Assembly (NCBI GenBank): GCA_011109175.1
Contig: RDEW01000003.1
Span: 1-64,000, forward strand
Direction: 5' to 3'
Length of the DNA: 64,000 nt
Source of the DNA: Dicyema japonicum
Taxonomy: Eukaryota > Dicyemida > Rhombozoa > Dicyemidae
The notes beneath the pieces are model-generated. The model searched no databases and was not told where the DNA came from. It worked only from the letters and a program-made list of their open reading frames with translations. Positions 39,877 through 63,128 of the stretch are shown piece by piece. Position 1 is the first letter of the stretch. Each line of letters begins with the position of its first letter. The position numbers and the translations under genes were made by a program.

Positions 39877-40663
39877 TTTTATCGCACGTCTTACCGGCGC
39901 GGACATCACTTTATTCTTTAACAAAAGAGTTTTCATAATGTAATCTTCATCAGTGATTTAATCAGCGACAAAATTAAAATAGTCAAAAGTGTACTCTTAA
40001 TAATTATCCAGGTGGTAAAGCTTGGTGAAAAAAAATATTTGAAAAAATTTTAAGATTTTCCGTGCGTTGTTCTGAGATATCAAGGTCACTTTGCCAAGCG
40101 TATTCAATGCTTATAGAACAAATTATTTGTATAGTAGCTTAAACGAATGAATAGAAGATACTGGAGAATGTAAAAAATTCTTAAAATTACTCGGGGCTAC
40201 CAGGTTCACACGAGACTTTTCGGCGGTTCTTCAAAAATCAAAGATGTTTAATGTCTCTTGCACGGACCATGTCAACTCGACTCTTCGATATTTTGCTTTA
40301 ATCACGAGATCAGCACCGTACGATTGAGTTTCTTGTTATAGTCAGAAATTCCGAAATTAATATTATTAATAGCACGTTTGTTATCTCAGCTACGTCACCA
40401 ACCATTTAACCAATGAACACTGAACTTGGCAAATCTACATATTGGAGATTTTCGATATTGGGGGTCATTTTATAGCTCAACTGATTCTTATAAACTGGTA
40501 AATCCACATTGTTATCAGTGCATAAGACTATTAATTTTAACAATTATCACATTGAAACTGACAATTCTCTTTTGTAAGTGAAAAACCAAAGTCGATGTTT
40601 CTAAATTGTTTCTTTGACAATGGAAAACATATTGTACTTAATATTATTCTGATTTTTTTATTC
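39877..40663. other. Unique stretch right of the tandem array, no gene recognised
   Basis: About 790 bp, AT-rich, without a long open frame or a repeat shared with the rest of the window. It separates the array edge from a retrotransposon insertion. Confidence 0.5.
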
Positions 40664-43600
40664 AAGACAATTATTTAGCACGTTTATTAAGTGGTGTGGT
40701 GTGACCAACAAAAATCTCATGGAAATTAAAGAACGAAAAGAAGGCAAAGTACGAGGAACAAATCCAGTACGGACAAATCAGGTATGTTTTTTATGTGGAC
40801 AATCGAACATCAGGAAATATGGGATTAACTGCACACAATGTGAATCATTCGCCCATCTGGGCTGCATAAAAATGAGTAAAGCTTGCGCCGAGACGCTGTC
40901 GAGTTGGCTGTGCCCCTCTTGTATTGGAATGGAGGCCCCCAGGCGGGAAAAAATAACTCAGTCAAACTTTACACTGCCACATACAGACCATACTCTCTTG
41001 AAGATCTCGAACCTCAGGAAAGCCATGAAGATCCCAGTAAAAATCCCTAAAGGAGTACGAATTGCCGCAGCAACGTGTCTTTCAGATGCCATTGATCACG
41101 CACTATCCTCTGACAGTTGGGAATCCTGGCTAAAACTTATATGCTTTGCACCTGTCGCACTCGGAATACCTACAAAGGAATCTGAGGACAATAATAAAGA
41201 AACAAACTCCCGACTCAACTTATCCGGGAAACTGAAACGAAACATAATGAATTTTAGCTGTCATAACATACACGCAATACTTGAACATCCACTTAATGTC
41301 AATGAGGTCGAAACCAGAGGAGCATTCATCAAAGATGCCCCCAACAAACTAAAGGAGAGAGTAAACCGGAAACTTCTGGAAGGCGACGTGCGGGCAGCCT
41401 TACGAGTTATCACATCCGATGACACAGTATTGTCTTGTACCCCCGAGGTCCTAAATACCTTAATACTAAAGCATCCAGATGCACCGACTGACTATGAAAA
41501 GTTTTTGAATCCTGAAGGAACCCAGGAGATAATCATTACTGAATCCGAAGTGCGCCACGGAATAACTTCCTTCGCGGCTAGCAGCGGTGGAGGCTTGGAA
41601 GGGTTACGTCCTGGCCATATTAAGGACCTTACGTCCACTTACACCTCGGAAGCTGGACGGTGTCTTGTCAAATCAATTACGGACCTAATCAGAAAAATGG
41701 TTAACGGCGACATCCCAAAATATGCCAGAGAATTGCTCTTCTCTGCAAGGCTACTTGCTTTCAAAAAACCCAACGGAGGAATCCGCCCCATTGCGGTCGG
41801 GAACTATTTTAGAAGACTTGCAGCAAAAGTAGCATCGACCATGGTGAGCAGACAACTCGGAGAGGAGTTCTTTCCTAAACAAATGGGTGTTAGTATCCAG
41901 AACGGATGTGAGGTTGCGGTTCATGCAGCAAGGCGTTTCTTCACACAGAAAAATATTTCAAATGAATGCATTGGAATCAAGTTGGACATAACGAATGCCT
42001 TTAATTCTCTCAGAAGAGACGAAATTATGAAAACGTGTTGGAAGAGGGCTCCAAAGCTTTTCCCTCTTGTCAATCTGTCCTATGGTGAAGATACGTCTTT
42101 GGTTTTTGAAAATGAAATTATTAAATCAAAAACGGGTGTACAACAAGGAGATCCGCTCGGACCTCTATTATTTGCCTTGACCATTGATGAGGTTGTGAGC
42201 TCAATTGATGCTCAGCTAAATCTCTGGTACCTCGATGATGCCACAATTGGAGGATCGTTCAAAGAAACATACAATTCATTACGTAAAGCGTTACCCGCTT
42301 TAAAACATTTGGGCTTGGACATCAATGTTAACAAATCAGAGCTAATAAATGTCTCATATCCATACACCGACTTCCTCTCTATCAAGGAGTCTTTTGAAGA
42401 ACTGCTTCCTGGGATCCCGACTGTGCCAGTTGATAAATTATATTTCCTCGGATGCCCACTCAGCGAAGAAGAACTCAAGAACCATCTACTTTCCAAAAAT
42501 GAAGAATTAACACGCCTTGCGAAAAGATTGTCATGTCTCGACTCTCACACATCTTTCTTTCTATGAGAAACAACATCGGACTACCCAAGCTTTTATATCT
42601 ACTCCGATGTTCACCCTGCTACGAACAATATGACATTCTACTTTCAATGACAAGTCTCTCAAGCAAACAGTCGAGTCAATAATTAACGTCCGCTTCGACG
42701 AACTTGGTTGGAAACAATGCAAGCTTCCCTCTGGATTTGGGGGTGTCGGAATGAGATCGGCGCTGGAGGTTGCGTACCCGGCATACCTATCATCTCTCTC
42801 AAGCTGCAGTCATTTGACACGGCAAGTCCTTCATAACACAATTGGACTTTGCTGGAATGAGTCATTTGACGAAGCTTGTCGGAAATGGAACGGGTCCGGA
42901 CTCAAAATCCCAGAAGACACAACAAGCAAAAAATTGGGATGACATTGTCTGCTCCAAAATTTTGAAGACCTTAAGAAAGAAGCAAATCAACATCGTCTGG
43001 CTTGTTTGGTGTCAGCTTCAAGTCGAGGGAGTGGAGCATGGCTTGGTGCAATACCTTGCCCAAACCTCGGGACCTTTTTGGACGACGATTCTTTGAGGAT
43101 TGGAATCGGACAAAGGCTGGGACTAGACGTTTGCCAGGAGCACCGATGCCGATGCGGGAAAACAGTCGATGCGAAAGGATTGCACCCGCTGTCCTGCAGA
43201 AGAAGCGCCGGAAGGGGACCACGTCATGCTGCTCTGAATGATGTGATCGTCAGAGCTCTGAAGGCTTCAGGCTTCCCAGCACAGCTTGAACCAGTGGGTC
43301 TTGATCGAGGAGATGGGAAGAGACCTGACGGGATGACCCTTTTCCCCTTCACGTCTGGAAGATCTTTGGTCTGGGACGCAACTTGCATAGACACGTTCTC
43401 AAGCACGAACATTTTTAAATCTGTTCAGACACCTGGAGCAGCTGCTTCGACCGGAAAACCTAAAAATCAAGAAATATTCTTGCCTCGGGGATCGCTACCA
43501 TTTACTCCTGTTGCGACCGAATCATCGGGAGCCGTTGGTCCAATGACGGCTGAATTCTTGCAAGAACTCGGAGGATTGCTTGCCAAAAAGAAAAGGGATC

Positions 43601-43762
43601 AACGAGAAGGGCTATGGCTAAGACAAAAGATTGGAATAGCCATACTCCGAGGGAACTCGTTCGCAATCCACGCAGCAGGCTTCCTCAACTGATATTTGTT
43701 TAATTGTTAAAAAAAATTTTTATTAATAAAAAAAAAGAAAAAAAAAGACAATTATTTAACAC
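40664..43762 (+). mobile_element. Full-length non-LTR retrotransposon (restriction-like endonuclease type) with target-site duplication
   Basis: The sequence AAGACAATTATTTAGCAC at 40664-40681 recurs as AAGACAATTATTTAACAC at 43745-43762, one mismatch, giving a target-site duplication of about 14 bp. The element between them (about 40678-43744) starts 41 bp upstream of its first ATG and ends in an A-rich tail after TTAATTGTTAAAA. This arrangement indicates complete reverse transcription and insertion. A 5'-truncated sister copy lies at 47912. Confidence 0.85.
40719..43692 (+). pseudogene. RT/endonuclease polyprotein of the retrotransposon, with frameshifts
   Basis: From ATG 40719 (a GTG-led frame opens at 40701) the protein starts with a PHD-like C4HC3 finger (Cys23, Cys26, Cys38, Cys41, His46, Cys49, Cys65, Cys68). 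The RT follows: FKKPNGGIRPIAVGNYF, the motif A region KLDITNAFNSLRRDE, GVQQGDPLGPLLFALTI and the catalytic LWYLDDATIGG (LDD rather than YADD). After the stop at 42566, continuing frames carry LGWKQCKLPSGFGGVGMRS, then a CCHC knuckle (CRCGKTVDAKGLHPLSC) and the nuclease motif RGDGKRPDGM with LVWDATCIDTF, the RPD..D pattern of the R2/NeSL-type superclade. It ends WLRQKIGIAILRGN... at 43692. Frame changes near 42560, 42646, 42937 and 42968 suggest a recently dead copy or assembly errors. An N-terminal PHD-like finger is unusual for R2-type elements. Confidence 0.85.
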
Positions 43763-51155: not shown

Positions 51156-51351
51156 GGTTTGACGAGTGACGCCGTCATCAGTGGATAATCACTGTGGAAC
51201 TGGATTGTCTAGAAAGGACACTCACACAAGAAAAAGAAAAAAAGAAGTGAAGATCATTCCTTGGTTCTACGATTAGTAAAAATTAACTGTTCTTTACTTA
51301 AATAAAGTGTGTGTCCTGCCTATGCGGAGCTATAAATACTATGGCCTCGTG
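51156..51351 (+). repeat. tRNA-derived SINE, 5'-truncated copy
   Basis: Begins inside the body at TTGACGAGTGACGCCGTCAT, continues through CTCACACAAGAAAAAGAAAA and AAATAAAGTGTGTGTCCTGC, and ends ATGGCCTCGTG. It shares this body with 53155-53462 (minus) and 58498-58735 (plus) but lacks the tRNA-like head. Confidence 0.72.
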
Positions 51352-51860
51352 AAAAGGCTTTTAAACAAACTGTACATTCGTCGAGCGGAAAAACACCTTT
51401 TGAGATGTATAGAGGCATTCCTAGTGTTAACATTTTTACACTAAATGATGGTTGGTTTTTATTTTTTTTATAATTTGACATATGTTTAGAGAATGATATT
51501 TGCGAGAAGACAGTAAACACTGATGTTGTTTTGTATGATGAGTCGTTAGACGAAACAAATAATGAAGCTACAAAGTCTGTTTGTGAACTGGTTTACAAAA
51601 AAATGATTTTAAAATTAGAAAACTTTCAACTTAAGCTCATAAAACCGAATTTGAATTCACCTTATTTTAAGAGGATGAACAAAAAGATGAATGTTCATCA
51701 TGGTAAATACACTTGTCTATGGGAGATCAAGTTTTTATTAATTAATTAAATGTAGGTTAGAGTTTTACAAGATTATGGAACTAATCCTTCTTTAAGGATG
51801 AATAAATTTGAGAGTCCAAACAGTGAGAATGTAGAAGTTCTAAGTTTATAATCAAACAAT
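51352..51860 (+). mobile_element. Integrase fossil, 3' part
   Basis: AFKQTVHSSSGKTPFEMYRG at the left matches the N.S.HSSTGKSPFE..YG signature just after the integrase catalytic Glu. After a frame change, 51531-51749 reads DETNNEATKSVCELVYKKMI, possibly the linker or C-terminal region. It fits the 5' part at 50240-50610, so the two once formed one element. Confidence 0.45.
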
Positions 51861-52589: not shown

Positions 52590-53150
52590 TTTATCAACTA
52601 TGAAAAAAATTATTCAAATGTACATGGTCAAGAAAATATAACTAATTTTAATTAAATAACTTTTTTTTGACCAAAATAAAAGTTTAGATTTAAAAAATTA
52701 AATTAACTCAAGATTATCTTATTTCAGTAATTAATCGTGATTCGATTGATATGATTTTGACATATGACATTGATTGACACATGATTTGTTGCGCGTTCTG
52801 CATGGTTGCTCACAGTGTGCGTTCTTCATGTCAGATAGAAAAACAGATTCAAATTACAAAGCTTAATCTTTCAATAGTTTTTAAGTGGAGATATAATATT
52901 GTTTGTCGATCCACTTGTTCTTCATACAAGACCTGAGTTAAAAGCTCGCGGAAATTATCCAAGGATCTCAGACTGTAACTCGCAAGACTGGAGTGCTAGC
53001 TGTTTTGATTGTCACAGCACAATTATATCCAAGAAAAAAAAAGAAAATTGTTGAGGTTTTTGATCTCAAATAACAAGGACTTGAAATAATGATTCCAAAA
53101 TTAGAAAAAGTGGAAAGGCTTTTCCAGAAATGGGATGAAAGTAACAGCTC
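52590..53150. other. AT-rich stretch, no gene recognised
   Basis: About 560 bp with no coding frame and no repeat that I could relate to other parts of the window. Confidence 0.5.
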
Positions 53151-53154
53151 TTTT

Positions 53155-53462
53155 CACGAGAGCCATAATATTTCTAGAACCGGATAGGCAGTACACACAC
53201 TTTTTTGAGCTAAGAACAGTTATATTGACTAATCGTAGTAAGGAGGAAAAAACCAAGGAATGTCTTTTAACTTCTTTTTCTTGTGTGCGAGTTCTATTCC
53301 GACGATCCGATTTCACAGTGAAGCATTCACAGATGATGGCGTCACTCGTCATACCCAAAGCATCATAGATGCGTGGAATCTTCAGTCGGAATTTACAGCA
53401 GCGAGATTCGAACCCGGGGTCATCAGTACTTTGCCCTGTGCTTATGACACTCGCCAAGCTTA
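53155..53462 (-). repeat. tRNA-derived SINE, most complete copy
   Basis: On the minus strand the element starts AAGCTTGGCGAGTGTCATAA, with an A-box-like TTGGCGAGTGTC (53446-53457) and a B box GGTTCGAATCT (53404-53414). Then follow ATTCCACGCATCTATGATGC, TGACGAGTGACGCCATCATC, a central CTCGCACACAAGAAAAAGAA and a tail ATTATGGCTCTCGTG. The spacing of the two boxes fits an RNA polymerase III promoter. About 308 bp. Confidence 0.78.
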
Positions 53463-53469
53463 TTGAAGT

Positions 53470-53972
53470 TATCTGAAATAAGTTTCGATATTCACTTTGC
53501 CTAGAATGAGCAATATATTTTCTATTATATTACTGGGCGATATTAGATCCCGGAAATATATTTCTAGAAATTTTCCATCTTCTAATGGACTTTCTGAGAT
53601 CACTTGATGAGTTGGGTTTGACATCTTTTGTAGTGATCTTGGGTTTTTTTAAATAAATAAAAACATTTACTAAATTCTAACCATTTATTAACGCGGTATT
53701 CGTCTCAGGATAGCAAGATCAACTGTGGGAGCCACTGAGTTTCACGAACGTCATAGCTTGTGTGTGTTGCTGAATAAAAAATTTAAGCAAAAAAAGATTT
53801 CCGGTTCAAGCTGTAAAGAGCTTTAGTTAAACAGTCACAATCAGGTTAGTAATTAAGTTAATCTGAAAATCCCCTATGTATTATTATTAAAGAAAATAGT
53901 CAAAAATATGGTGCTCTATTGAAAGTCGACTAGAATTTCGATAACTATAAGGATCGTTAACCTTTTTATAAA
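53470..53972. other. Region upstream of the micro-exon gene, likely holding its promoter
   Basis: About 500 bp of non-coding sequence, very AT-rich from 53880 on. A partial match to repeat A lies at 53700-53770. No promoter motif stands out. Confidence 0.4.
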
Positions 53973-55964
53973 ATGATTGAGATTTCCATATTACGCATAG
54001 TGCTTGTTTTTATTTTAGGTTTTTTGAATGTTAATTTAAATTCATTAAAAATATTAATATAATGATAAAATGAAAAATAATTTATTTCTATTAAATTAAA
54101 ACATTTTTAAAAATAATTCATTTAAATAATAATCGAAATAAAATATCGGTTGATAAAATAATAAGCCATTATTAATGATTTCGAAAATAAGTTGGTTTTA
54201 TAAGAATTTATAGCAATTTCGCTATATTGCATCAATATAATAATAAGCATGTTAGGAGAACGTGATTTTTATCAAAGCGAAAATACAGGTACATATTAGA
54301 AAATTATCATTTAACCGCATTTTCATAATTATGCTATTTTAGAAAGTGAATCAGCTAACAATTTTGATATTTCGAATAAAAGCAATGAAGGTATACGTTA
54401 ACAAATTTTTATTTCACCATTTTTTTCATAATTGTTATTTTAGATGAATCAATTAACACGGATGATACTTCCAATCTAGGTATATGCTGACAAATCATCA
54501 TTTAATCACTTTTTATGATTATACTATTTTAGGCAAGAGTGTCTATGGAAATGTTGTCATTAAAAAAAGTAAAGATTAATAAAATATCATTAACCACTAT
54601 TTCATTACTTTAGAAACCGAAACACCTATGGGAGAAGACGCTGTTGATTTTTCCAACAAAAGTATATATTAGCAAATTATCATTAACCACTATTTCATTA
54701 CTTTAGAAACCGAAACACCTAAGCGAAAAGACGCTATTGATTCTTCCACCGCAAGTATATATTTGCAATTATCATTTGACTCATTTTTCATAATTATGCT
54801 ATTTTAGAAGCTAAAACAGTTAACACTGATGATATTTCGGGTAAAAACTCAGGTACACGTTAACAGATTTTTATTTCACCACTTTTTCATAATTGTTATT
54901 TTAGATGAATCAATTAACACTGATGATACTTCCAATCTAGGTATACAATGACAAATCATCATTTAATCACTTTTTATGATTATACTATTTTAGGCAAGAG
55001 TGTCTATGGAAATGTTGTCATTAATAAAAGTAAAGATTAATAAAATATCATTAACCACTATTTTACTTTAGAAACCAAAACACCTATGGGAGAAGACGCT
55101 GTTGATTTTTCCAACAAAAGTAAATATTAGCAAATTATCATTTAACCACTATTTCACTACTATAGAAAATAAAAAACCTACTGGGGATGACCAAGTTTCC
55201 ACCGAAAGTATATATTAACAATTACCATTTAACCACTTTTTCTTTACCTTAGAAAATAAAGAACCTGATGGGAAGGAAGATATCTCTGTTAAAAGTAAGT
55301 ATTTTACCAATTTTCGTTACTTTAGATAATGCAAAACCTGATGGCAAAGATGCAATTCCCACTGGAAGTAAATATTAACAAATTATTTTACAATCTCTTA
55401 TATATTACTTTAGAAAATGGTTTAAACCGAGGAATCTCCACCACCCAAGCACAAACTGGTACATACTATCAGATTATCATTTAATCACTTTTTTATAATA
55501 TAACTTTAGATTATACATTTTTTCACACCACACGTACAACTACACGTAGTACTCCCACAAGTACCTACTAACAGATTATTATTCCATTACTGTGATAATT
55601 ATTCTAGAAAGTACAACTACTCAAAATATCTTAATTCGTTTTAATGGTACATATTAAAGGATTATTATTTAATCACTTTATAATAATTATATTAGAAAAT
55701 GAACCTGATTTTCCTAGGAAAGGTAAAAAAATCATTATTTTATCATTTTCATATAATTTATTACTTTAGATGATGACGCAGAATCTATTCCAAAGAAAGG
55801 TATTGACAATTCATTATTTAATCACTGTTGTGCAGTTTATTACCCTTTAAGATAAATCATCGGCTGGTGGAAGCTATAATATTCCAATGAAAGGTATTTT
55901 ATTAATATTTTTATTTTCAGGAACCTTAACCCTTTTCCTTTGGGTAGTACTAGTTACCTTCTAA
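53973..55964 (+). CDS. Micro-exon gene encoding a modular, probably surface/secreted protein
   Basis: Proposed 21 exons, 864 nt of coding sequence, about 287 residues. Exon 1 (53973-54018) encodes MIEISILRIVLVFILG, signal-peptide-like. Nineteen internal micro-exons follow: 54256-54288, 54343-54390, 54444-54479, 54533-54568, 54614-54661, 54707-54754, 54808-54852, 54905-54940, 54994-55029, 55072-55119, 55166-55207, 55253-55294, 55326-55367, 55414-55458, 55510-55560, 55608-55646, 55696-55722, 55770-55799 and 55852-55893. Every one is a multiple of 3 (27-51 nt), every junction is phase 1, every intron is GT..AG, and no stop occurs. The last exon (55921-55964) adds TLTLFLWVVLVTF and TAA. The SSAGGSYNIPMKG before it resembles a GPI-attachment region. 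Residues are mostly Asp, Glu, Lys, Ser, Thr and Asn, with a Thr-rich mucin-like part (HTTRTTTRSTPT). Introns are 27-54 nt except the first (237 nt). Exon 1 is the least certain: translation could instead begin at ATG 54249, which is also in phase. I recognise no family. Confidence 0.8.
54343..54661 (+). repeat. Micro-exon block, first copy of an internal duplication
   Basis: Four exons and their introns (54343-54661) are duplicated at 54808-55119 in the same order and phase. Exons 2 and 3 of the block differ by one substitution each between copies (ACG/ACT; AAA/AAT). Exon 1 is diverged (48 versus 45 nt), and exon 4 differs in one codon (GAA/AAA). Introns are also nearly identical, with small indels. 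Confidence 0.88.
54808..55119 (+). repeat. Micro-exon block, second copy of an internal duplication
   Basis: Partner of 54343-54661. One extra related exon (54707-54754, again beginning ETP after Lys-Thr) sits between the two blocks and derives from the fourth exon of the first, so the array grew by both single-exon and block duplication. Confidence 0.88.
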
Positions 55965-58497: not shown

Positions 58498-58735
58498 ATG
58501 AGGTCCCGGGTCCGAATCTCGCTATTTTTTATTCGCTTCCACGCATCTACGATGCTTCTGGGTTGACGAGTGACGTCTTCCTCAGTGTGTCATCACTGCA
58601 GAACTGATCTTATAGGACTCGCACACAAGTAAAAAGAAAAGAACGGGAAGTCAAGAACATTTTCAATGGCTTGGATTAGTTAGCACGATTGTTCTTAAAT
58701 AAAGTGTGAGTTCTGCCTAAACTGAGGTTTAACTA
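58498..58735 (+). repeat. tRNA-derived SINE copy
   Basis: GGTCCCGGGTCCGAATCTCG (B box region) followed by CCACGCATCTACGATGCTTC, GGGTTGACGAGTGACGTC, CTCGCACACAAGTAAAAAGA and AAATAAAGTGTGAGTTCTGC. Body order is identical to the minus-strand copy at 53155-53462. The A box end is missing or too diverged to identify. Confidence 0.75.
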
Positions 58736-60342: not shown

Positions 60343-60657
60343 TAATTGAATTTTGTAATTTATTAATGTGTCAAGAAATCACAAAAAAGTAAAATATTAA
60401 TTTACATAATCTCAACTTAACCATTAAGTGTATAAAGTATTATTTTTTTCTGAAAATTTTTTTAACACGATCCTTAAATTTACTGAAAAGCACACAGCAT
60501 CTAAGAATAATGGGCAAAAAAACCTATTCCCTCTATCCGCATGTGATATCAATCCACTATCCCCTAATTTCTAAAAATTAATTAAATATATACATCTTTC
60601 GAAGGGAAGTGTGGAGAAGACACATTAACACGTACACGCGGCTTATTGATTATATAA

Positions 60658-61739
60658 CTATACCACAGCAGCATGTCTTCCGATCCAGTCAAAGCCCCAA
60701 TCACAGGTGGAATTCTTTCTATTTAGTAGTTTATGGAACATTCCTCGCAAATTGCTGTAATCAGGTTTCTCGACAAACCCAAGTCCTCGACAGTATGTTA
60801 TATACGAATTGAATTCGCCTAATAATCACTATTCACTATGTACTAGGGAATCCGTGACATAAATCAGAAACAGAGACAGTCTGTTTCGTTTCTCCAATCT
60901 TTCTATATCGTTCAGTCGTGGTTTCTGCTTTGAGTCCCTGCCAAGGAAGAGTCCCTCTCAGAAAGTACATAAGCATATGTCCAAGTGACTCCAAATCATC
61001 CCTCCTACTTTGCTCTATTTATCACAATATGTAGTGACCTATCCCAAGATGTGTATTCACGCTCATATATCTTGCTGTCCCAGTGAGGGCTTTGTGTTCT
61101 CTATATGGCACGTGGTGGCCAGACACGGGGTTTATGTACTCTTTCGCCAAACCAAAGTCGACAGCATGAACAATATGTGTTTTGTTGGATGATTGATGAC
61201 CCACTAGAAAGTTCTCTGGTTTGATATCTCTGTAGATTATTGCTTGTTCGTGAATAAATTCAAGTCGATGTAGCTGTTAAGTGTATCATAATCATACTAA
61301 TTGTATTGCAATCATACAAACTGTTTTCACTGAAAAACGACGATTGCAGCTGTCAAATAAATTCTCAAGAGTGGGGCCCAACAATTCCATTACAAGAGCA
61401 TTATAGTTATTTGTAGAACCATAGTAGAACACGTGGGGGATGCCCTCTGGTGTAAATCACCAATAAACCTCCACCACGAAGTCTTCCGTAAAATTGATAT
61501 TCCTTGTGAAGCTGGACAGACTTTGAATTTATTAATTCCTTTAATAAATTTAATAATAAATACAAGTTTAATGGCCACATATTCGTTAGTATACAAATTC
61601 CTCCCTTAAGATTAAGACTAAAAACACGACCTAATCTGATCTCTCCAAAGTTGCCAGAACCAATCTTTCTTCCCACTCTGTAGTTCGATCCGATCATAAG
61701 TATTCCTTTATCATAATTTGCCTGTTTCCTGTCCTCCAT
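60658..61739 (-). CDS. CSNK1G: Casein kinase 1 gamma-like Ser/Thr kinase
   Basis: CK1 gamma kinases are membrane-associated and act in Wnt receptor phosphorylation and vesicle traffic. On the minus strand from ATG 61739: [20 protein letters not shown] (Gly-rich loop), then [11 protein letters not shown] (VAIK lysine), [13 protein letters not shown], then, in further short exons, [20 protein letters not shown] (DFG) with [40 protein letters not shown] and [16 protein letters not shown] ending in [14 protein letters not shown] at 60658. Retained GARYMS-type P+1 loop (GTARYMS) and EYI.P....PYREHKSLTG identify the gamma subfamily. Introns of about 20-30 nt interrupt the gene and not all boundaries were resolved. 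The protein ends soon after the catalytic core, without the C-terminal palmitoylation tail usual for CK1 gamma. Confidence 0.83.
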
Positions 61740-61881
61740 TATGTTAAGTAGGAATGTCTCACTACATAAAACATTAAGTTATTAAAAAATAATTTACAAT
61801 TTGTTTATAATTAAATATTTAATAATTTCGTTTTGTCTTTTGTTGTACTATTTGCCAATAATAAATTAAAAATCATAGTTC
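61740..61881. promoter_or_regulatory. Bidirectional promoter region between two kinase genes
   Basis: The 142 bp between divergent start codons must hold both 5' untranslated regions and promoters. It is AT-rich (TTATTAAAAAATAATTTAC, TTTATAATTAAATATTTAAT) with no specific factor site that I can name. Confidence 0.5.
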
Positions 61882-63128
61882 ATGGATCCCAAAAAGTTAT
61901 TTGAAAACCTCGAACTAATTGGAAAAGGGTCATTTGGGACAGTTTATAAGGCCTTGGATACTTCCAATGGGAAAACAGTTGCCCTTAAACTGATGGATTT
62001 GAATATTATTGAAATGGAAGTCGAGGACATTCAAAGAGAATTGGCCGGTTTATCCCAAAGTCACTGTCCTTTTATAACGCAATATTACGCCTCATATATT
62101 CAAGTATAAGATCTCTCATAGTTAAAGGATACTACATTATGGATTTCTATGGAATATATGAGTGGGGGGTCTGTTGCTGATTTATTACTTGAGGTAACTC
62201 TTAATGAGGCTCAAGTGGCCATTATTGCAAGCAACGTCTCCCAGGCTCTTATTTATCTACATTCAAAGAGTGGACGAATTCACAGAGACGTTAAATGTAT
62301 AAAATTAACTTAAAATGAAGCTGCGAATATATTACTTTCTGAGACGGGGACGTCAAATTGGCTGACTTTGGCTCCTGTGGAGTAATTAGTGGAACTGATA
62401 AACGGAGTACATTTGTTGGGACTCCTCTTTGGATGGCACCTGAAGTCATTCTTCAGCAGGATTATGATTATAAAGTAAATCAGCTTTTTATTCTCAGATT
62501 GATATTTGGGGGTTGGGAATTACTTGTATTGAAATGGCTATGGGAAAGCCCCCACATTCTGACAAGCATCCAATGAAAGCTCTATTCCTTATCCCCCATT
62601 CAGACTCACCTCAGCTTCCTCCAACTTTTTCGAAGCAATTTCGACAATTCGTGGATCTCTGTTTAAACAAGGACCCTCGTGATGTAAGAATAACTTAGCT
62701 CATGCTAGCGACCACATGCAGAAGTATTAGTGAAGCATCCATTTCTACGAAAGTGTAAGAAGAAACATCATTTGGTTGAAATTATTAAACGATCACGTTC
62801 TAACATTTCCCCAACCATTCCATCCGATTCCTCTCCTAGTGACGATGGGGATTGTGGTAGTCTCCTCTCTCCTATCACTCACTTCAGTTTTTAATAACAC
62901 TGTCCTCTCATCTCCCCCCGCTCGTAACAATTTCCTTACTGATTTCATAAATAATGTAGTTTTATGGTAATCGTTTAGTTCATGAATAATTACAGTTCTG
63001 TACAGTTTAGCGTGTTTGACGGATTGATTAGCTCCCTTCAGTCAATATCGTCAACGAATCCATATTTTAATGACAATTTGGCAAATATTATTGTTACGAA
63101 TTTTGCATCCACCAAGACATCACTATAA
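61882..63128 (+). CDS. GCK-III subfamily STE20 kinase (MST3/MST4/YSK1-like)
   Basis: STRIPAK-associated Ser/Thr kinase family. From ATG 61882: [20 protein letters not shown] (Gly loop), VALKLMDLN (catalytic Lys), an 18-nt intron (62104-62121), [25 protein letters not shown], a 24-nt intron (62297-62320), [30 protein letters not shown], intron 62475-62497, [32 protein letters not shown], intron 62684-62708, [15 protein letters not shown], intron about 62857-62887, [20 protein letters not shown], and a last exon [14 protein letters not shown] ... NFASTKTSL ending TAA 63126-63128, placed like the dimerisation region of family members. One base appears missing at about 62347 (between LLSET and DVKLADFG), so the gene is either damaged or has an assembly error there. 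Confidence 0.82.

Follow-up and report, generated by a model that had tools for sequence, protein, structure and literature searches.

A predicted gene with 18 consecutive phase-1 micro-exons in the dicyemid Dicyema japonicum

The chain of micro-exons at the locus

Dicyemids are tiny parasites of octopus kidneys. The DNA analyzed here is a 64,000-nucleotide stretch of the Dicyema japonicum genome (GenBank assembly GCA_011109175.1, contig RDEW01000003.1, positions 1 to 64,000 of the forward strand), referred to in its entirety as the window, in which a sequence-only reading had described a micro-exon gene (MEG) at 53973 to 55964 with a signal-peptide-like first exon of 46 nt and 19 symmetric internal exons. 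Analysis of this locus led to a revised model on the + strand, namely, a dicyemid MEG that starts at 54175, carries 18 phase-1 micro-exons and is a divergent member of a secreted or surface protein family, its array having grown by duplication. We consider this explanation probable, on the basis of the exon chain, its reading frame, the homology of the 5' region to a family in the same genome, the duplications and the exons, which have diverged further than the introns.

The corrected array consists of 18 consecutive in-frame exons of 27 to 51 nt, all phase 1-1, between 54343 and 55893. The exon chain places micro-exons 3 (54343 to 54390, 48 nt), 4 (54444 to 54479, 36 nt), 5 (54533 to 54568, 36 nt), 6 (54614 to 54661, 48 nt), its sister 7 (54707 to 54754, 48 nt) and 8 (54808 to 54852, 45 nt). 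Exon comparison identified micro-exons 9 (54905 to 54940, 36 nt), 10 (54994 to 55029, 36 nt) and 11 (55072 to 55119, 48 nt) as copies of exons 4, 5 and 6, respectively. The chain continues with micro-exons 12 (55166 to 55207, 42 nt), 13 (55253 to 55294, 42 nt), 14 (55326 to 55367, 42 nt), 15 (55414 to 55458, 45 nt), the Thr-rich 16 (55510 to 55560, 51 nt), 17 (55608 to 55646, 39 nt), 18 (55696 to 55722, 27 nt), 19 (55770 to 55799, 30 nt) and 20 (55852 to 55893, 42 nt), the last of which encodes small residues (SSAGG) and is a candidate attachment site for a glycosylphosphatidylinositol (GPI) anchor. The last coding exon (55921 to 55964, 44 nt) encodes the hydrophobic C terminus GTLTLFLWVVLVTF and the stop.

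A scripted search found that a single AG...GT chain from 53973 to 55964 fits the 19 internal exon lengths given by the sequence-only reading. That chain forms an uninterrupted frame from its ATG to the stop (287 amino acids plus stop), and all 19 internal exon lengths are divisible by three, whereas introns 2 to 20 (27 to 54 nt) leave remainders of 0, 1 and 2 in 7, 6 and 6 cases, respectively. The coding frame of exons 2 to 20 contains no stop, compared with 5 and 43 in the two other frames; order-1 random sequences of like composition held 17.1 stops on average, and none of 5,000 was stop-free. Moreover, a strict scan of the window (GTA donors, TAG/CAG acceptors, exons of 18 to 60 nt and introns of 22 to 70 nt) returned a phase-1 chain of 18 exons from 54256 to 55799, while strict chains reached at most 5 exons both in 20 third-order Markov copies of the window and in 300 second-order copies of the array region, and at most 4 in a genome sample of 20 stretches of 10 kb (200,000 bases, 10,760 of them N). 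Splice-aware scanning of four 6-kb loci of related genes also gave a longest chain of 4, and the scans of the window, the 200-kb genome sample and these loci covered ∼288 kb in total. The micro-exon chain is present in the sequence, far beyond chance. With a unique chain re-derived, no in-frame stop and a randomized maximum of 5, the earlier description of symmetric phase 1-1 internal exons that are bounded by AG and GT and free of stops is upheld. The lengths and the frame of the 19 internal micro-exons were likewise as described, but their number falls to 18, preceded by a symmetric exon of 75 nt, as relatives align with the window up to the ATG at 54175 (described below).

When splice weights were taken from the array's own introns, a frame-blind Viterbi path recovered 18 of the 19 exons exactly, and all 18 were multiples of three. 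It counts against the gene as drawn that weights from eight unrelated introns recovered only 10 of the 19 exons, with 13 of 19 lengths being multiples of three, so that the placement of the exact exon boundaries depends in part on the internal consistency of the array. Retention would introduce an in-frame stop for 16 of the 19 introns. The last intron (27 nt) is a multiple of three and remains in frame without a stop if retained, and exons 20 and 21 may therefore form a single exon. From exon 2 onward, every exon-exon junction (190/190) is in frame without a stop.

Start of the gene and its relatives in the same genome

An own-genome search with the 5' stretch 53850 to 54258 yielded matches to three places on C1 (75 to 78%) and one on C170 (71%). 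The family concerned has at least eight loci with strong matches to the C170 protein (C1 at 350, 358, 368, 375, 677 and 684 kb; C170 at 168 and 232 kb), with weak matches (E of 0.01 to 0.7) on C17, C34 and C101, and five of the eight were read (C1:357-380 kb, C1:677 kb and C170:228-233 kb). The C170 gene comprises six exons (207, 154, 171, 54, 33 and 80 nt) separated by introns of 22 to 25 nt and is phase 1 throughout from the second junction on, two of its exons being symmetric micro-exons; its protein ends in TILGKLMIFLVGILVI and had no match in Pfam and nothing meaningful in PDB (best E, 0.12). Family members are built of a signal peptide, a domain of ∼150 residues, a stalk in which phase-1 micro-exons occur singly or in twos, and a hydrophobic C terminus. 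By reading, the C1 copies at 358 and 368 kb contain three tandem copies of the domain, each followed by micro-exon-like pieces, and lack an AG at the last stalk acceptor, C1_375 has an apparent frameshift, and C1_677 has one candidate micro-exon; C1_358, C1_368 and C1_375 may not be intact.

The window gene resembles this family in its conserved upstream region, a start that is aligned in two members, a putative signal peptide, phase-1 stalk micro-exons and a hydrophobic last exon of weak similarity. It differs in having 18 micro-exons and no domain, whereas the relatives have the ∼150-residue domain and micro-exon runs of one or two; the ectodomain was not found in the window gene, as the search with the C170 protein gave 44 matches at E ≤ 1 and not one on C115. 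Judged from these features, the window gene appears to be a divergent copy within the C1/C170 family.

The conserved upstream region (54010 to 54174, + strand; promoter or 5' untranslated region) is common to the family, and its first nine bases are the end of exon 1 in the sequence-only reading. It matches C1:375517, C1:368489, C1:358003 and C170:232856 with E values of 3e-10 to 9e-14, and these matches adjoin, on the 5' side, genes with a signal-peptide-like start. In blastn, homology to C170 extends from 54010 to 54178, and the window ATG at 54175 falls on the C170 ATG. The blastn matches to C1_375 and C1_368 end at 54146 and that to C1_358 at 54113, while local alignment with other scoring extends all three to 54176. 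Upstream local alignment scores exceeded all 500 Markov controls for four of the five members (C1_375, C1_368, C1_358 and C170), and both C170 and C1_677 have an ATG aligned to 54175. The start at 54175 is preferred over that at 53973 because the relatives align with the window up to this ATG.

Translation from 54175 yields MISKITISLYCINIIISMLG and then ERDFYQSENT in the known frame, giving a protein of 291 amino acids. Proposed exon 1 (54175 to 54190, 16 nt) would encode the start of the signal peptide (MISKI), proposed intron 1 (54191 to 54213, 23 nt, GT..AG, GTTGGTTTTATAAGAATTTATAG) is of a size typical for the genome, and proposed exon 2 (54214 to 54288, 75 nt, phase 1-1), in frame with exons 1 and 3, would supply the rest of the signal peptide and the first mature residues (..TISLYCINIIISMLG/ERDFYQSENT). 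Several observations weigh against this start. The ATG is common to only two of the five relatives, C1_375, C1_368 and C1_358 reading ATA with an in-frame ATG 9 nt downstream, and the upstream match of C1_677 did not stand out from the controls, 9 of 500 scoring as well. The upstream stretch is AT rich and has six weak matches in the 200-kb background (E of 7e-4 to 8e-3), to be set beside the 2e-13 to 9e-17 obtained in blastn for the four relatives. The proposed signal peptide is moderately hydrophobic, its best 11-residue window scoring 2.22, a value that 137 of 2,379 random ATG-led stretches match, and the likeness of its residues to those of C170 is not significant (1,437 of 5,000 shuffles as good).

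Alternatively, the 5' end could be as in the sequence-only reading, with exon 1 (53973 to 54018, 46 nt, MIEISILRIVLVFIL), a 237-nt intron to 54256 and the remainder unchanged. This exon is the more hydrophobic of the two candidates (window 2.86; 2.84 was reached by 30 of 3,916 random ATG-led stretches), the frame from it is open to the stop, and, a short hydrophobic frame led by an ATG was also read at the same place in C1_375 and C1_368. Against it, the relatives lack the AG/GT boundary, C170 lacks an ATG at this place, and the relatives' proteins begin ∼200 nt farther downstream in the alignment. Furthermore, its donor GTTTTTTG follows TTTTATTTTAG, an acceptor-like string, and an intron of 237 nt is long for this genome. 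We regard this 5' end as unlikely; exon 1 at 53973 to 54018 is probably noncoding, and it and the start of the exon 2 that followed it are probably wrong.

Growth of the array and the predicted product

Self-comparison revealed that the array units are clear tandem duplicates. Beyond single units, a block of about five exon-intron units (54286 to 54789) recurs at 54752 to 55242 with 87% identity. The recent block copies show 3 differences in 120 exon sites and 6 in 147 intron sites, with gaps in three of the four intron pairs and none in exons; exons 6 and 7 differ at 8 of 48 sites, and introns 5 and 6 at 5 of 45. Across the array as a whole, introns are more alike than exons, which suggests exon diversification, although homogenization of or constraint on the introns could also produce such an excess. 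Positive selection was sought in the close exon pairs, where the difference counts are too small for dN/dS to be decisive (1 synonymous and 2 nonsynonymous in the recent block; 0 and 8 in exons 6 and 7), and this is a further point against the favored explanation.

The tandem units and the absence of visible purifying constraint on amino acids in these same counts would also suit a noncoding or decayed minisatellite with a unit of ∼90 nt and incidental GT and AG, the gene being dead or never having been one. Such a minisatellite is hard to reconcile with 19 of 19 exon lengths that differ and yet are all multiples of three while the intron lengths are not, with the stop-free frame, or with gaps that fall in the introns of recent copies and spare the exons, and we judge it very improbable.

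For the predicted MEG, the translated product would be an extracellular protein. With exon 1 of the sequence-only reading, it contains no Cys, one N-glycosylation sequon and, in residues 17 to 266, 39 Lys/Arg and 45 Asp/Glu; proposed exons 1 and 2 add a single Cys, within the signal peptide. The C-terminal tail consists of 14 residues up to the stop, with SSAGG some residues before it, and the hydrophobicity of this C-terminal window was equalled by 123 of 11,663 random stop-ended stretches. We infer that the tail and SSAGG form a GPI signal. The array protein should be disordered, and the product may be a secreted or GPI-anchored, Ser/Thr-rich, disordered variable surface protein. A match of the protein to PF05573 (NosL) was disregarded, at about 17.4 to 17.5 bits against a cutoff of 24. 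The resemblance of the last exon to the relatives' GKLMIFLVGILVI is weak (2 of 5,000 nucleotide shuffles and 19 of 5,000 amino acid shuffles as good), no relative of the 3' region was found by blastn or genome search, and the whole protein, in the version of the sequence-only reading, had no homologue at E ≤ 10 among 2,183 candidates from 5.8 billion sequences. These results, too, count against the gene as proposed.

In the proposed mechanism, translation would begin at 54175, the two short exons would form the signal peptide, the 18 phase-1 micro-exons would encode a Cys-free, charged, Ser/Thr-rich and probably disordered extracellular stretch, and the last exon would provide a hydrophobic tail most likely directing GPI anchoring. 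The array would have arisen from the family architecture, in which phase-1 micro-exons stand singly or in pairs, as exon-plus-intron units were duplicated in tandem and, once, a block of about five units was copied. Since every internal exon is symmetric and of phase 1, the frame is kept when a unit is gained, lost or skipped. Protein variation might therefore come at little cost, through duplication from one generation to the next and through exon skipping from one transcript to another, and a very large number of in-frame isoforms, as envisaged in the sequence-only reading, is possible on paper. The likely outcome would be a protein whose length and sequence vary through unit duplication and, perhaps, exon skipping. 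Mutually exclusive splicing of the Dscam type was set aside, all exons being symmetric.

In the same gene, all micro-exons may instead be constitutive, building a long stalk of repeats that varies by exon duplication and divergence and not by skipping, a view that differs from the mechanism above only in its last, conjectural step. Very short introns are generally recognized across the intron, with retention rather than skipping as the common error. The ordinary introns of this genome, mostly 22 to 29 nt, are of a size usually recognized in this way, and tandem duplication of one phase-1 unit gives symmetric exons without any skipping. On the other hand, 18 of 18 micro-exons and all junctions are frame neutral, as free skipping needs, and the array introns (27 to 54 nt, with a median of 47) have roughly double the ordinary length and may permit exon-centered regulation; neither point is decisive, and the unusual intron size is in itself an argument against the gene as drawn. 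Constitutive inclusion is quite possible, with a likelihood approaching even. More tentative is the fullest version of the skipping MEG, in which one copy of a surface protein family lost its globular domain and independently became an MEG, its exons diversify faster than its introns, and skipping and duplication together supply a GPI-anchored coat of combinatorial variety toward the kidney of the cephalopod; we would sooner doubt it than adopt it. The splicing pattern, the anchoring, contact with the host cephalopod and the making of isoforms are predictions.

Relation to other micro-exon genes and genomic setting

A numerical rule for tapeworm MEGs calls for at least seven exons, at least half of them micro-exons (<70 nt and divisible by 3), in a run of at least four (PMC7653826). 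The predicted gene has 18 micro-exons among 21 exons, in one run of 18, and qualifies as an MEG by this rule. Schistosome usage adds a product with a signal peptide (PMC4350168, PMC4671649) and a micro-exon size class of <36 bp (PMC4671649), and MEGs are described as apparently restricted to platyhelminths (PMC4350168). The window gene is like the flatworm MEGs of schistosomes and tapeworms in its signal-peptide-like start, its long run of small symmetric exons and its hydrophilic product, and unlike them in its dicyemid host, a 5' end from a family of its own genome, introns of 27 to 54 nt and an array visibly derived from tandem duplication. In comparison with schistosome MEGs in particular, only 6 of its 18 micro-exons are ≤36 nt. 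Schistosome MEGs further have two long exons flanking the micro-exons and yield variant transcripts by exon skipping; in the window gene, the coding parts of the flanks are 16 plus 75 nt and 44 nt, to which untranslated sequence may add, and skipping would be possible. The bicycle genes of aphids encode putative secreted effectors and have many very small internal exons of a single phase (PMC9168663), features that the window gene shares. Bicycle exons, however, are of phase 2 and related through CYC-motif homology (PMC9168663), whereas the window gene is of phase 1, has no Cys outside the signal peptide and has a hydrophobic C-terminal tail.

The claim that an MEG architecture lies behind a signal-peptide-like start in a non-flatworm parasite is supported by the tapeworm rule together with the dicyemid Zic gene and the intron sizes described below. 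The sequence-only reading had left its origin as either independent or deeply shared. Our comparison, in which flatworm MEGs were compared by description, places independent origin ahead of descent from a flatworm MEG in likelihood, given that the 5' start is shared with a family of the same genome whose members have few micro-exons. The matches of the 5' region and the weak resemblance of the last exon favor independence, and a deeply shared system is the less favored option. No mention of micro-exons in dicyemids was found in a library of open-licence papers.

No further run of phase-1 micro-exons emerged from genome searches by protein, DNA and intron motif: the whole protein and the DNA from exon 2 on matched only their own locus, and the most conserved array intron motif occurred nowhere else in the genome at up to three mismatches. 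This lack of a second array also speaks against the proposed gene, and, as the protein, DNA and intron-motif searches gave no second array or homologue, the array shows no cross-species conservation. A genome-wide array pattern produced 11 matches, compared with 42 in the reversed control, and no clusters; a looser pattern produced 221, compared with 867. Among the looser matches listed (to within C115), only C115 had three close places, C104 had two overlapping matches, and C110 had two 0.3 kb apart on opposite strands.

A dicyemid case with a likely source family in the same genome would offer a route for MEG origin, in which a stalk micro-exon is amplified and the domain is dropped. The gene is also a candidate for host-facing protein diversity in dicyemids, animals of about 30 cells (PMC6736024) with, in D. 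japonicum, 5,012 predicted genes (PMC6736024), and convergence in the variable proteins of parasites becomes testable. Since MEGs are hard for gene finders (PMC7653826), others may be unannotated.

The assembly totals 64.67 Mb in 191 contigs, with a GC content of 35.0% in the window and 34.8% in the 200-kb sample; the published D. japonicum assembly has 67.5 Mb, a GC content of 36.7% and a mean intron length of 38.2 (PMC6736024). Dicyemid introns have been reported with a mean of 26.2 nt (n = 16; PMC2222250) and with a median of 27 nt, about two thirds being <30 (PMC6543705). In scripted models of the TBL3/UTP13 gene (Utp13 domain), which ends at ∼47.5 kb, introns are 23 to 29 nt, apart from one of 59 to 60 nt in three of the four models shown, and a 26-nt intron was counted in the sequence of the Zic gene. 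Among the best 120 of 3,740 matches, the Zic protein was closest to Dicyema acuticephalum ZicA (60% identity over 93% of the query) and ZicB (58% over 88%), followed by Octopus sinensis ZIC 4-like (55% over 88%), with the zinc-finger/ZIC proteins of other animals scoring lower. The source of the window is accordingly taken to be a dicyemid other than D. acuticephalum. The O. sinensis protein, on a 37.7-kb contig, ranks with dicyemid Zic, and dicyemid contamination of the octopus assembly is possible. A search of the assembly for COX1 (PF00115) gave no match and hence no mitochondrial identification.

Elsewhere in the window, positions 1 to 39620 hold about three tandem copies of a 13-kb unit (6464 to 26621 versus 19465 to 39620, 98.8%), with several repeated open reading frames, one of which we take to be a pogo/Tigger-like transposase. 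Two putative protein kinase genes, one casein-kinase-1-like (60600 to 61740, − strand) and one STE20-like (61880 to 62790, + strand), were recognized by eye. A long interspersed nuclear element at 40653 to 43692, with a zinc-finger-like N terminus (by eye) and a reverse transcriptase, has 107 relatives at E ≤ 0.001 among 7,995 scored candidates, with up to 48% identity. Finally, an interspersed repeat at 51156 to 51363, 53101 to 53540 and 58505 to 58638, with ∼75% identity between copies, flanks the micro-exon gene on both sides.
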